From Candidatus Magasanikbacteria bacterium CG10_big_fil_rev_8_21_14_0_10_36_32 (lineage in GTDB: Bacteria; Patescibacteriota; Patescibacteriia; Magasanikbacterales; GWA2-37-8): 48,030 nucleotides of DNA. The stretch lies in NCBI GenBank assembly GCA_002778465.1, contig PFBV01000005.1, positions 71,534 through 119,563 of the forward strand, in the 5' to 3' direction. The notes beneath the pieces were generated by a model. It was not told the origin of the DNA and made no database searches. It worked only from the letters and a program-made list of their open reading frames with translations. The position numbers were made by a program, and so were the translations under genes. This document shows positions 35,017 to 38,567 of the stretch, one piece after another; position 1 is the first letter of the stretch; every line of letters starts with the position of its first letter.

Positions 35017-36558
35017 TTATTTTTCCGCAAATACTTGAGCAGTGAAGATATAAATTTCTGACGAACTATCTTGCCAGCAATTTTTAGGCAAGCCGGCTTT
35101 TTCAACGCATAAATTATTTAGAAAAGTTTCTTTATCCCAGTTCATTTCTGTTGCTACTTGAGGCAGGAAAACGCCGCTTTGACGGCCTTTTTTAATATAA
35201 ACGCCATGAGTACCTATTTCAATGGAATCGGCGTTGTTAATTTGTTTCATCGGAGAAAGAACAGAAATTTCAATGGTAATGAGATTTAATTCATTGATTT
35301 GTAATGGTTCAAAGCGCGTATCGTTAAACGCGGAGGATAAAGCCATATTTTTTATAACATCAGCTAATATGATGTCGGGTTCAAAGATGCCAATGCAGCC
35401 GCGCAACTGACCATCTTTTTTAAGAGTTACAAAAGCGCCACGTTGTTGGTTAAAAATTTTCGGAAGTTTTTGTATATCCGGTTGATATTCTTGTTTATTA
35501 AAAGCCATCACTAAAGATTGGCGAGCAATATCCAATGCCAATTTTTGTTCATTGGAATTTAATTCAGCAGTAATAGTTTGGTTTATCATATTATAATCGT
35601 TAAAAATAATTGAGGCGTATCCAACCGTTTGATTTTTTGAATCAGGCGCGTAGTCACCGCTGTTGGCATATTTTAATAATTGGCCGTTCCAATTTAATTT
35701 TTTAACCAGCTCTAATCCGGAAGCGATTGGTTGTTGACCGCAGGCTAGGGTGGCGACTTGCGGACGGTTCAATTCGGTTAACTCAGTAATTTTATTTTGG
35801 AATTTATTCGCGTCGCCAGTCAGAATTGCTTTAATTGTTTCGTTGTCTAAATAATTAGCGTCTTCATAAGTCGGATAATGAGATAAGTCAGAACTGATAA
35901 TAATTAAAGTTTTATTATCTATTGTTTTAGCCAAAATATCAGCTAATGCGTTGGCTGATTCAGATTGTTCGTTGCCGAATAACAGGGGAACGATTTTTGT
36001 TTCGGAACCAAGCGTTTTTATTATAAATGGAACAATCACTTCCAATGAATGTTCCGGTGTGTGTGGTTTTTTGTCGGAAAAAACAATGGAAGTTTTTTTT
36101 AATTGCTCAATAAATATTTGATCAACTTTTATTTTTCCGAGCGGTGAATTCCAACTGTCATGCGTATCGGCGGCCACGCCGTCAAATTGAATATTATGAC
36201 TTTGTCCAATTAAAATAACTCGGTCGTATTTATTTTCTCCAAGATTTTTAAAAGCGTAAGCAGTCACTTGTCCGGAATAGTCATATCCGGCGTGGGGAAC
36301 AATTATCATTTTTGGCGTACCCGAAGTGGTAGTTGTTTCCGCTTGGGACAAAAAATCATTGATTTGATTATTTAATTCGTTTTGATTATTGGAATAATAT
36401 TTTCCGGCGGCAATTGGTTCACGAATATTTTTTGGTGTGGTTGTTGAGGAAGTTGATTGTGGCAAAATAACTGATTGGTTAGTTTTGTAAATAAAAAAAC
36501 AGGCGGCGATGATTCCCACTGAAATCAAAATAAAAATTAGAAATAGTTTAACTGACAT
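35017..36558 (-). CDS. Membrane-anchored fusion of Memo (AmmeMemoRadiSam B) and AMMECR1 (A) domains
   Basis: The 513-residue protein begins with one hydrophobic helix (about 4-25) followed by a Ser/Thr-rich linker, suggesting export with an N-terminal anchor. Residues about 50-320 are a Memo domain: PHAGYDYSGQVTAYAF, LIGQSHNI, PEHSLEVIVPFI, SSDLSHYPT and the Cys in TLACGQQPIAS. Residues about 335-513 are AMMECR1: RGAFVTLKKDGQLRGCIGIFEP, SSAFNDTRF and FLPQVATEMNWDKETFL. Together with a radical-SAM protein these form the AmmeMemoRadiSam group, whose chemistry is still poorly defined. No such radical-SAM gene is in the window. The apparent extracytoplasmic location is unusual. Confidence 0.9.
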   Translation of the reverse strand: MSVKLFLIFILISVGIIAACFFIYKTNQSVILPQSTSSTTTPKNIREPIAAGKYYSNNQNELNNQINDFLSQAETTTTSGTPKMIIVPHAGYDYSGQVTAYAFKNLGENKYDRVILIGQSHNIQFDGVAADTHDSWNSPLGKIKVDQIFIEQLKKTSIVFSDKKPHTPEHSLEVIVPFIIKTLGSETKIVPLLFGNEQSESANALADILAKTIDNKTLIIISSDLSHYPTYEDANYLDNETIKAILTGDANKFQNKITELTELNRPQVATLACGQQPIASGLELVKKLNWNGQLLKYANSGDYAPDSKNQTVGYASIIFNDYNMINQTITAELNSNEQKLALDIARQSLVMAFNKQEYQPDIQKLPKIFNQQRGAFVTLKKDGQLRGCIGIFEPDIILADVIKNMALSSAFNDTRFEPLQINELNLITIEISVLSPMKQINNADSIEIGTHGVYIKKGRQSGVFLPQVATEMNWDKETFLNNLCVEKAGLPKNCWQDSSSEIYIFTAQVFAEK

Positions 36559-37067: not shown

Positions 37068-37074
37068 AAAGAAC
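37068..37074 (-). promoter_or_regulatory. GTTCTTT box in the 3' UTR
   Basis: The minus strand reads ATCCGTTCTTTCTCTC, three bases after the stop codon and before the terminator. Confidence 0.45.
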
Positions 37075-37077
37075 GGA

Positions 37078-37470
37078 TTACCGGATGTGTTCAACAAGCA
37101 GTCCCAGATCGCCGGGCATATAAGTGTGATTGATGTAATCAACTAGCAAAGCGTCCAGCGCATCTTGATCAAGAGTTGTTTTGCCGTAGGCGGGATTTTT
37201 CCGTTTGGAGCGCTGAATATTTGCGGCCGCGTTTGGCGCCCAATTCCAAATATCTTTCCAGAGCCGGCGTTTGACTTTTTTTAGTTTTTCGGCGCTGGAT
37301 TTTGAAACAACAAAACAAGTTGAGAGGAATAAAATTGCCAGTTCTCTGGCCATATTCTCGTCAATTATATCATCGCCCCAGACCTTTAAAAAATTTTTCG
37401 CGTGAATTGATTTGCGAAAATGCTTCGCCTCTGTCTCAAGAATTTTGGCCATTTCTCCGTTTGTAATCAC
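37078..37470 (-). CDS. Hypothetical basic helical protein, co-transcribed with tRNA-Glu
   Basis: No family is recognised for this 130-residue protein. It is mainly helical, with a hydrophobic centre (ARELAILFLSTCFVVS), a strongly basic stretch (SAEKLKKVKRRLWKDIWNW) and a C-terminal acidic-hydrophobic part (DQDALDALLVDYINHTY). The GTG at 37470 is chosen because AGGAGG lies at proper spacing upstream; reading further upstream would run into the tRNA. GC-rich codons (29 G or C in the 60 bases 37081-37140, against 15 in a 60-base sample of murF) mark it as a member of the dispersed class. It shares the tRNA-Glu promoter. Confidence 0.75.
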   Translation of the reverse strand: MITNGEMAKILETEAKHFRKSIHAKNFLKVWGDDIIDENMARELAILFLSTCFVVSKSSAEKLKKVKRRLWKDIWNWAPNAAANIQRSKRKNPAYGKTTLDQDALDALLVDYINHTYMPGDLGLLVEHIR

Positions 37471-37491
37471 TTGTTCCTCCTGTTTGTTGTT

Positions 37492-37498
37492 AAAGAAC
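37492..37498 (-). promoter_or_regulatory. boxA-like GTTCTTTAACAAC between tRNA-Glu and the next gene
   Basis: The minus strand reads AAGTTCTTTAACAACAAAC, seven bases after the tRNA 3' end and about 21 bases before the start codon, upstream of the AGGAGG SD. Confidence 0.55.
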
Positions 37499-37505
37499 TT
37501 TTTTT

Positions 37506-37580
37506 TGGTACCGCCAAGGGGAATCGAACCCCTATAACAAGCTTGAGAAGCTTGTGTCCTAACCGTTAGACGATGGCGGC
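37506..37580 (-). tRNA. tRNA-Glu (anticodon CTC)
   Basis: Acceptor GCCGCCA/TGGCGGT (one G-U), D arm GTCT...GGAC, anticodon stem CAAGC/GCTTG with loop TTCTCAA, T arm AGGGG/CCCCT with TTCGATT; discriminator A and an encoded CCA follow. Confidence 0.95.
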
Positions 37581-37632: not shown

Positions 37633-37669
37633 TGTAAATAAAATGACCACCCCGATAAACGAGATGGTC
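37633..37669 (-). terminator. Terminator after the 37722-38012 gene
   Basis: On the minus strand GACCATC pairs with GGTGGTC (one U-G) and is followed by ATTTTATTT. A second small CCGG hairpin lies just upstream at about 37681-37696. Confidence 0.7.
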
Positions 37670-37721: not shown

Positions 37722-38012
37722 TTAGAGCAAGTTGCTCTGGTCGATGTTGTTATACAATTTTGTGACATCTTCATCAGTGATAGATCCTGTTCTTATCAGA
37801 AAGTTCACCGTGATGTATCCGCCGTTTTTTGTTTCGAACGGATCGGATTTTATTTCGTTTGACTCCAAGCCGTCGTTGTAATATTCAACACCCTCACAAT
37901 TAGGCATGTCATCCGTATAATTTTCGTGATAATAAACAATGTGTCCATGATATTCAGCTGTGATATTGGGGTCGTCGAAATCGTGTCGGCTTTCTATGAT
38001 GAATCTGGCCAT
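37722..38012 (-). CDS. Hypothetical acidic protein
   Basis: The 96-residue protein starts MARFIIESRHDFDDPNITAEY and looks like a small alpha/beta domain with alternating strands (GHIVYYHENY, GGYITVNFLIR) and a short C-terminal helix. No family is recognised. The ATG follows AATAGGAGATAAAAAA, a clear SD. It is preceded by one copy of the duplicated leader element, including a GTTCTTT box, and no separate promoter is obvious, so it may be read from the promoter at 38539-38567 together with the small membrane gene. Codon composition is GC-richer than in the surrounding genome. Confidence 0.75.
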   Translation of the reverse strand: MARFIIESRHDFDDPNITAEYHGHIVYYHENYTDDMPNCEGVEYYNDGLESNEIKSDPFETKNGGYITVNFLIRTGSITDEDVTKLYNNIDQSNLL

Positions 38013-38047
38013 TTTTTTATCTCCTATTGCATTTAAGGTTTATATTT

Positions 38048-38103
38048 AAAGAACGTTTGTTTTTCTACCCTTGTTTCAACTCGGAACTAGTTCCGAGTTG
38101 AAA
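38048..38103 (-). repeat. Duplicated leader element, copy A
   Basis: About 56 bases nearly identical to 38408-38463. On the minus strand it contains a hairpin CAACTCGGAA/TTCCGAGTTG (part of a perfect 30-base palindrome), then CAAGGGTAGAAAAACAAACG and the GTTCTTT box, then the SD and start of the 37722-38012 gene. Confidence 0.85.
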
Positions 38104-38109
38104 AGGGGT

Positions 38110-38134
38110 GGCGAACTTGGTAAGCGTGTTCGCC
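38110..38134 (-). repeat. Hairpin between the two small genes
   Basis: Perfect 7-bp inverted repeat GGCGAAC/GTTCGCC with an 11-base loop, just upstream of leader copy A in the transcript direction. No T run follows directly, so termination there is uncertain. Confidence 0.6.
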
Positions 38135-38178
38135 GGAGACGTTGGGAGGAGAGTTGAATGTCAGCAGGGGGGGTCGAG

Positions 38179-38277
38179 CTAGGCGACGATGCAGACCACG
38201 GTTATGATCAGGAACGCTGTGCTGACGATCATGGCCACCTGTTTAACGGTCAGCTTTTTCGTCTGATAGAATACCAT
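38179..38277 (-). other. Second half of a split small membrane gene, in the -1 frame
   Basis: From an ATG at 38277 this frame reads MVFYQTKKLTVKQVAMIVST and on through a hydrophobic helix ending VVCIVA before a TAG (32 residues). It overlaps the 38250-38390 gene by 28 bases. No SD is seen for it. It most resembles the missing second membrane helix of that gene, either broken off by a frame change or reached by ribosomal slippage at CGAAAAAGC. Confidence 0.5.
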
Positions 38278-38390
38278 ACGGCCTTCATCAACGAATATAG
38301 ACCCATGCCAATCATGCCCAAAACGATGCCTGCCGAAACGAACAGAAGCATTAGTATTAGTGGACCGCATTCTACGAAAAACTCGTACAT
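38250..38390 (-). CDS. Small membrane protein, 46 residues, possibly truncated by a frameshift
   Basis: The ATG follows AAAAAGGAGAAAAAA, the same SD form as in the other small genes. The product MYEFFVECGPLILMLLFVSA... has one strong membrane helix (about 10-34) and a basic end (WYSIRRKS). In the next frame, immediately downstream, lies KKLTVKQVAMIVSTAFLI, a second plausible helix. A one-base change in the A5 run near 38256-38260 would make a 70-residue two-helix protein spanning 38179-38390. A longer frame at 38179-38370 starting MRSTNTNAS has no SD and is not the real start. Confidence 0.6.
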   Translation of the reverse strand: MYEFFVECGPLILMLLFVSAGIVLGMIGMGLYSLMKAVWYSIRRKS

Positions 38391-38407
38391 TTTTTTCTCC
38401 TTTTTGA

Positions 38408-38463
38408 AAAGAACGTTTATTTTTCTATCCTTGTTTCAACCCGGAAGTAATTTCGGGTTGAAA
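38408..38463 (-). repeat. Duplicated leader element, copy B
   Basis: The hairpin CAACCCG/CGGGTTG corresponds to CAACTCG/CGAGTTG in copy A: one pair has changed from T-A to C-G, keeping the stem. The following bases CAAGGATAGAAAAATAAACG and the GTTCTTT box match copy A. It lies in the leader of the 38250-38390 gene. Confidence 0.85.
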
Positions 38464-38538
38464 AATTTAAGTAAATTTTTAAATTGCTGGGTTGCTCACA
38501 TGTTGGAAAATAACTTTTCCATTTATTCGCAACTGAGA

Positions 38539-38567
38539 ATTATAACATATTTTGTGGATTTTGTCAA
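38539..38567 (-). promoter_or_regulatory. Consensus promoter of the two-gene leader-element unit
   Basis: Perfect TTGACA, a 17-base spacer and perfect TATAAT on the minus strand. The leader to the first start codon is about 140 bases and contains copy B. Confidence 0.85.

Follow-up and report, generated by a model that had tools for sequence, protein, structure and literature searches.

A duplicated hairpin-linker-box element, probably a boxA-like leader signal, precedes two small genes of a Candidatus Magasanikbacteria bacterium

Why does the same short, hairpin-bearing sequence stand in front of two adjacent small genes in a Candidatus Magasanikbacteria genome, and does its hairpin act as a conserved RNA? 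The original prediction described a structured 5′ UTR regulator conserved under selection. Here, we analyzed this locus within a window of 48,030 nt, the whole stretch of DNA under study, which belongs to an 880-kb genome that is 97% complete; coordinates refer to this window unless a locus name is given. The element is probably a leader signal of a boxA-like kind.

The repeated element and its transcription unit

The repeat measures 57 nt (about 56 in the original prediction) and occurs in the minus-strand sense as copy A (38048–38104) and copy B (38408–38464), which are 88% identical. Each copy consists of a hairpin, TTTCAACYCG...CGRGTTGAAA, followed by a 19-nt linker (CAAGGRTAGAAAAAYAAAC) and a GTTCTTT box. 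The hairpin foot and the GTTCTTT box form the two ends of the repeat, beyond which the sequences are unrelated except for a generic ribosome-binding site. From alignment and folding, the copy B hairpin (38434–38463) has 10 bp with an A-C mismatch and two further A-U pairs, and the copy A hairpin (38074–38103) is a perfect 30-nt palindrome. The linkers are CAAGGATAGAAAAATAAAC in copy B (38415–38433) and CAAGGGTAGAAAAACAAAC in copy A (38055–38073). Both boxes, at 38408–38414 in copy B and 38048–38054 in copy A (GTTCTTTAAA), are termed boxA-like here on the basis of alignment and 7-mer enrichment and, for copy B, the published consensus (PMC5725501). The 30-nt hairpins of the two copies have folding energies of −17.0 and −13.0 kcal/mol, with z scores of −7.0 and −4.5, and no shuffled sequence was as good. 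Neither copy is listed as an intrinsic terminator, and no T-run follows the stem on the sense strand, in keeping with the expectation that these are not simple terminators.

The order of the minus-strand unit is promoter, a second element that we call K (38477–38535), copy B, Shine-Dalgarno (SD) sequence, gene 1, an overlapping 32-aa ORF, a C-rich spacer, copy A, SD, gene 2, and terminator. The promoter (38539–38567), of the sigma-70 type, is TTGACA-17-TATAAT with a TG before the −10 and matches the consensus at 12 of 12 positions. Because this single perfect promoter is present and no promoter-like site was found on the minus strand between genes 1 and 2, we assign both genes to one unit driven by it. 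Copy B precedes the ribosome-binding site of gene 1 (AAGGAG, 38397–38402), which encodes a 46-aa hydrophobic protein (38250–38390). Copy A precedes that of gene 2 (AGGAG, 38021–38025), which encodes a 96-aa orphan protein (37722–38012) with no relatives among viral contigs or species genomes. Neither product yielded a Pfam family or a convincing relative, the sole match being a weak, holin-like one for gene 1 (E 0.014). A terminator scan places the intrinsic terminator of the unit at 37645–37669.

A possible 32-aa hydrophobic ORF (MVFYQTKKLTVKQVAMIVSTAFLIITVVCIVA; 38179–38277, minus strand), putatively coding, overlaps, in a different reading frame, the last part of gene 1 near CGAAAAAGC, and this overlap could reflect translational coupling or a frameshift. 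The spacer (38105–38183) is C-rich, G-poor, and rut-like, and a scan of both strands shows that no other 78-nt stretch in the window has a greater excess of C over G. Such a composition is typical of Rho loading sites. Elsewhere in the window, a single protein with fused Memo and AMMECR1 domains is encoded at 35017–36558 (minus strand).

The GTTCTTT box is enriched in leaders and trailers of this genome

The GTTCTTT box is the part of the element with the strongest statistical weight. We counted 7-mers in a 248-kb sample of the genome, with expectations from base composition and genes taken as simple ORF calls. GTTCTTT occurs 20 times in 5′ leaders against 2.1 expected, making it the fourth most enriched 7-mer there (the first being the −35 sequence TTGACAA), and 19 times within 60 nt after stop codons against 1.2 expected, where it ranks sixth. 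Leader boxes mostly lie about 5–9 nt past a −10-like hexamer, thus at the transcription start or close by, and are followed by NAAA, often in the form GTTCTTTAANA. Exact GTTCTTTAANA occurs 27 times in the genome versus 14 for reversed controls, and GTTCTTTAACAA occurs 10 times versus 1 for its control; about 17 of the 27 follow closely on a −10-like sequence and have an SD-led gene downstream. The trailer box falls between stop codon and terminator hairpin, its next bases are mostly pyrimidines, and some trailers carry the GCTCTTTAA form. Across 608 kb, a trailer box follows 16 of the 50 genes with a leader box and 22 of the 562 others (p 2e-9), an odds ratio of 11.6 that is approximate, as some intergenic gaps count both as a trailer and as the next leader.

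In the window, boxes that bracket transcription units, at the transcript start or in the gap between stop codon and terminator, are found at positions 1235, 1644, 7216, 12749, 13634, 23918, 24447, 37074, and 37498, and the same bracketing is seen in the whole-genome sample. In the region 37450–37580 (minus strand), GTTCTTTAACAA, an SD, and an ORF starting with GTG come after a tRNA gene, at a distance of about 10 nt or less, and a trailer box lies at 37074; the tRNA and this ORF are possibly transcribed as one tRNA-mRNA transcript carrying the same box. Another hairpin leader motif, GCGAAGTGAGTGAAATAAAAAC..GTTTTTATTTCCGAACGAGCGCAGATAA, stands between promoter and box in L022 (1390–1500) and in C4 near 188169 (L119).

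Enrichment of the box is little or none in four sampled members of the family, so its use looks recent or lineage-specific. We found no reports of this box in such bacteria in the openly accessible literature. The boxes of copies A and B lie inside the unit, over 100 nt away from its only promoter, unlike most leader boxes, and of about 40 box leaders only these two have the hairpin described here ahead of the box.

Comparison with boxA and the ribosomal RNA leader

In the rRNA antitermination leaders of Escherichia coli (rrn), the order is boxB-boxA, that is, a hairpin, then a linker, then boxA. Our element shares this order, and differs in standing before small protein genes, in an unrelated hairpin sequence, and in being duplicated within one operon. 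The 16S leader of the same genome also has the order of the element: a hairpin, TAAGGTGTAGAAAG.., and GTACTTTGACAA (in full, TAAGGTGTAGAAAGTTAGAAAGAAA then GTACTTTGACAACA), to be compared with hairpin, CAAGGGTAGAAAAA.., and GTTCTTTAAA, with partial similarity of its linker to CAAGGGTAGAAAAACAAAC. Two features of the rRNA leaders speak against a boxA reading of the element. The genome's own rRNA box, GTACTTTGACA (RNA form GUACUUUGACAAC), has two differences from GTTCTTTAACA, and the rRNA-like linker motif is absent from the rRNA leaders of most relatives. In the family, a conserved hairpin, GAAAAAAGAGYAAY..GRTTYCTCTTTTTTC, lies upstream of 16S (L077; rRNA leaders L085–L109), and a terminator-like hairpin follows 16S in this genome.

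Few Nus-factor targets are known beyond rRNA and phages: putative sites number a handful per genome at most. The boxA consensus for NusB-S10 is GYTCTTTAANA (PMC5725501). The leader form GTTCTTTAANA fits it and other leaders of the genome match it fully, while the boxes of copies A (GTTCTTTAAAT) and B (GTTCTTTTCAA) agree with the boxA core and not with every position. As in rRNA leaders and the suhB leader (PMC5725501), the box (GTTCTTTAA) fits GYTCTTTAANA and is located in the leader, in some cases with just a few nt to the SD, and NusB is encoded in the genome (PF01029, E 7.9e-39). For gamma-proteobacteria, the published counts are 0–7 putative boxA sites per genome at distances of up to 50 bp from a gene start (PMC5725501), whereas the box occurs here in several dozen mRNA leaders of one small genome. 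It also differs from known boxA in occurring in 3′ trailers and in the divergent rRNA box, and NusB binding is putative.

The reading that we prefer, at a probability of roughly 40%, is by analogy with the rRNA leader: a hairpin-linker-boxA leader that would act through Nus factors on the nascent message. The 57-nt unit would then be a composite leader signal ahead of each gene's ribosome-binding site, made of hairpin, 19-nt A-rich linker, and boxA-like GUUCUUU. We infer that the box (RNA GUUCUUUAA / GUUCUUUAACAA) would be a recognition site, most likely for NusB-S10 on nascent RNA; the hairpin would sit upstream of it as in rRNA leaders, in whatever role it may have. Copy B would load a Nus complex ahead of gene 1 and take the polymerase across the untranslated, C-rich spacer, and the complex would be loaded again at copy A, ahead of gene 2. 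It may in addition restrain the initiation of translation, an effect known from suhB in E. coli (PMC5725501). The antitermination version requires Rho and the translational one does not. As the 608 kb read of 880 kb (69% of the genome) showed no Rho P-loop motif, Rho antitermination may be irrelevant here. Neither version explains the trailer boxes, and these boxes, the weak or absent enrichment in the four family members, and the rarity of this hairpin among box leaders count against a boxA reading.

A broader version, which we hold to be possible at clearly lower odds, is that the boxA-like box is a general message mark. Many transcripts would have GUUCUUUNAAA at their start and a second box between stop codon and terminator, the hairpin-linker-box unit would install this mark inside an operon, and dozens of mRNAs, not rRNA, would be the targets of a Nus complex or another reader.

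The internal position of the two boxes also bears on an explanation clearly less probable than the preferred one, in which the hairpin is an mRNA processing or stabilizing structure. An endonuclease cut nearby would give gene 1 and gene 2 messages that start near GUUCUUU, as do other messages of the genome that are transcribed from there, and so mimic a primary 5′ end inside the operon. Most leader boxes lie at the message 5′ end, both boxes here are internal, only here does this hairpin stand ahead of the box, and both copies have stable hairpins, all of which would suit processing. Against it, leaders bearing element K also have internal boxes without this hairpin.

Covariation between the two copies

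Copies A and B differ at seven positions in their alignment (A1): two form one compensatory exchange, one breaks a pair, two are in the loop, and two are in the linker. The exchange, T-A to C-G (U-A to C-G in RNA) at columns 9/24, keeps the stem as originally described. That description omitted the two loop differences and a third stem change, G to A at column 12, which turns a G-C pair into an A-C mismatch in copy B. In simulations without selection, seven random substitutions gave at least one compensatory exchange with a probability of 0.08–0.09, and an exchange together with at most one broken pair with a probability of 0.03–0.05. The stem and the rest of the element changed at similar rates (3 of 26 versus 4 of 31 positions). 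Furthermore, template switching in inverted repeats can carry a substitution over from one arm into its partner. Since a single exchange has a chance of about 8–9% without selection and template switching is possible, the covariation, which amounts to one pair in two copies, is only suggestive and no proof of RNA selection. A conserved structured RNA family would show several compensatory pairs across independent copies; here there is one pair in two copies, with another pair broken, and conservation of the hairpin at the RNA level is unproven.

Both copies lie in one transcription unit and may descend from a local duplication. About as probable as processing is that nothing more took place: one gene gained the other's leader by local duplication, without RNA-level selection, and template switching in the inverted repeat, which changes both arms in a single event, produced the perfect palindrome and the paired exchange. 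The confinement of the two copies to one unit, the odds of a chance exchange, and the even rate of change all agree with this. It accounts less well for repeat boundaries that coincide exactly with the hairpin foot and the end of the box between unrelated flanks, for the stability that both hairpins still have, and for the genome-wide enrichment of the box in leaders.

The perfect palindrome of copy A could also be a 30-bp DNA operator bound by a dimeric regulator, which we consider improbable. Copy A has no nearby sense-strand promoter, and copy B lies about 75–105 nt downstream of the −10; the half-sites of a dimer need not change together; the symmetry is broken at the center of copy B; and the linker and box are conserved asymmetrically. 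We also considered an antisense reading, as the copy B stem pairs slightly better on the plus strand, and rejected it because the linker and box are oriented toward the genes on the sense strand.

Search for further copies

The element occurs exactly twice in its own 880-kb genome, both times in this unit. The relatives searched come from outside the species and genus of the source organism. BLAST of the element against 144 relatives gave chance-level matches only. No clear third copy came up in the own genome or in these relatives, nor among viral contigs and about 85,000 species genomes, in both of which the exact linker-box pattern was likewise not found. A covariance model of the two copies (R1), run on 86 genomes of the order, yielded two weak candidates, G014 (E 1.3e-4) and G050 (E 0.003), with rough, per-genome E-values such that neither is secure after counting 86 genomes. 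The G014 candidate has no evident SD-led gene in the sense direction. The G050 candidate has the same architecture, with the hairpin abutting AAGGGTAGAAGTGTGAATGGTCTTTCAAATTATGGAGG, then ATG. A pattern search of 381 genomes of the class returned the own two copies and six foreign matches, and G050 alone of the six has an abutting hairpin. Given the number of genomes searched, G050 is a lead, not proof, and as a lead it would support the hairpin-boxA reading.

The original prediction is thus partly supported: it holds as to a stable-hairpin leader unit, not a terminator, before SD-led small genes, with a strongly enriched GTTCTTT. Its claim of selection as RNA is not supported, given one covarying pair (p about 0.08), a stem changed as often as the rest, and no clear third copy.

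Rfam searches at gathering and relaxed thresholds placed no family at the element. That it is freshwater-2 (RF02980) or another known cis-regulatory RNA is very improbable: freshwater-2 likewise has two hairpins followed by an SD and ATG, and copy B gave a full-length match, but at 24.6 bits this is sub-threshold and half the gathering score of 49.9, much of the agreement lies in the ribosome-binding site, there is no common conserved core, similar weak matches occur in many relatives and two control genomes, and copy A has no match.

Element K

Element K, at the transcript start in the gene 1 leader, is a hairpin with a tandem GA internal loop, defined by a covariance model (R2), folding, and a family alignment. 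Its consensus is ATAATTAC TA GGGGT GA ..hairpin.. GA AGCCC GAC GTAATT TCAAGCTTCGCTTATAAT. The R2 model, built from nine own-genome copies, finds 11 copies in this genome and, at E-values up to 0.05, has hits in 16 of the 86 order genomes, from 11 genera, the weakest hits being doubtful. An alignment of 30 copies shows rich covariation in two stems around a tandem GA loop that is almost invariant: stem 1 occurs as AATCGC/GCGATT, AATTAC/GTAATT, and AATGGC/GCCATT, and stem 2 as GTTGT/GCAAC, GGTGC/GCACC, and GGGCT/AGCCC. K is dispersed and sometimes tandem; it lies here between promoter and box, and in relatives it often abuts start codons on either strand. Besides the window copy, loci are listed in L015, L017, L038, L039, L041, L112, and L157–L184, and no Rfam match was found at the five loci scanned. 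K is a better candidate for a conserved RNA than the 57-nt repeat.

Implications

If a boxA-like box does mark both ends of several dozen messages in this genome, the Nus machinery or another reader of the box would be able to serve as a general means of mRNA control in a reduced bacterium. The duplicated hairpin-box unit would be a compact, testable instance of such box-based control.
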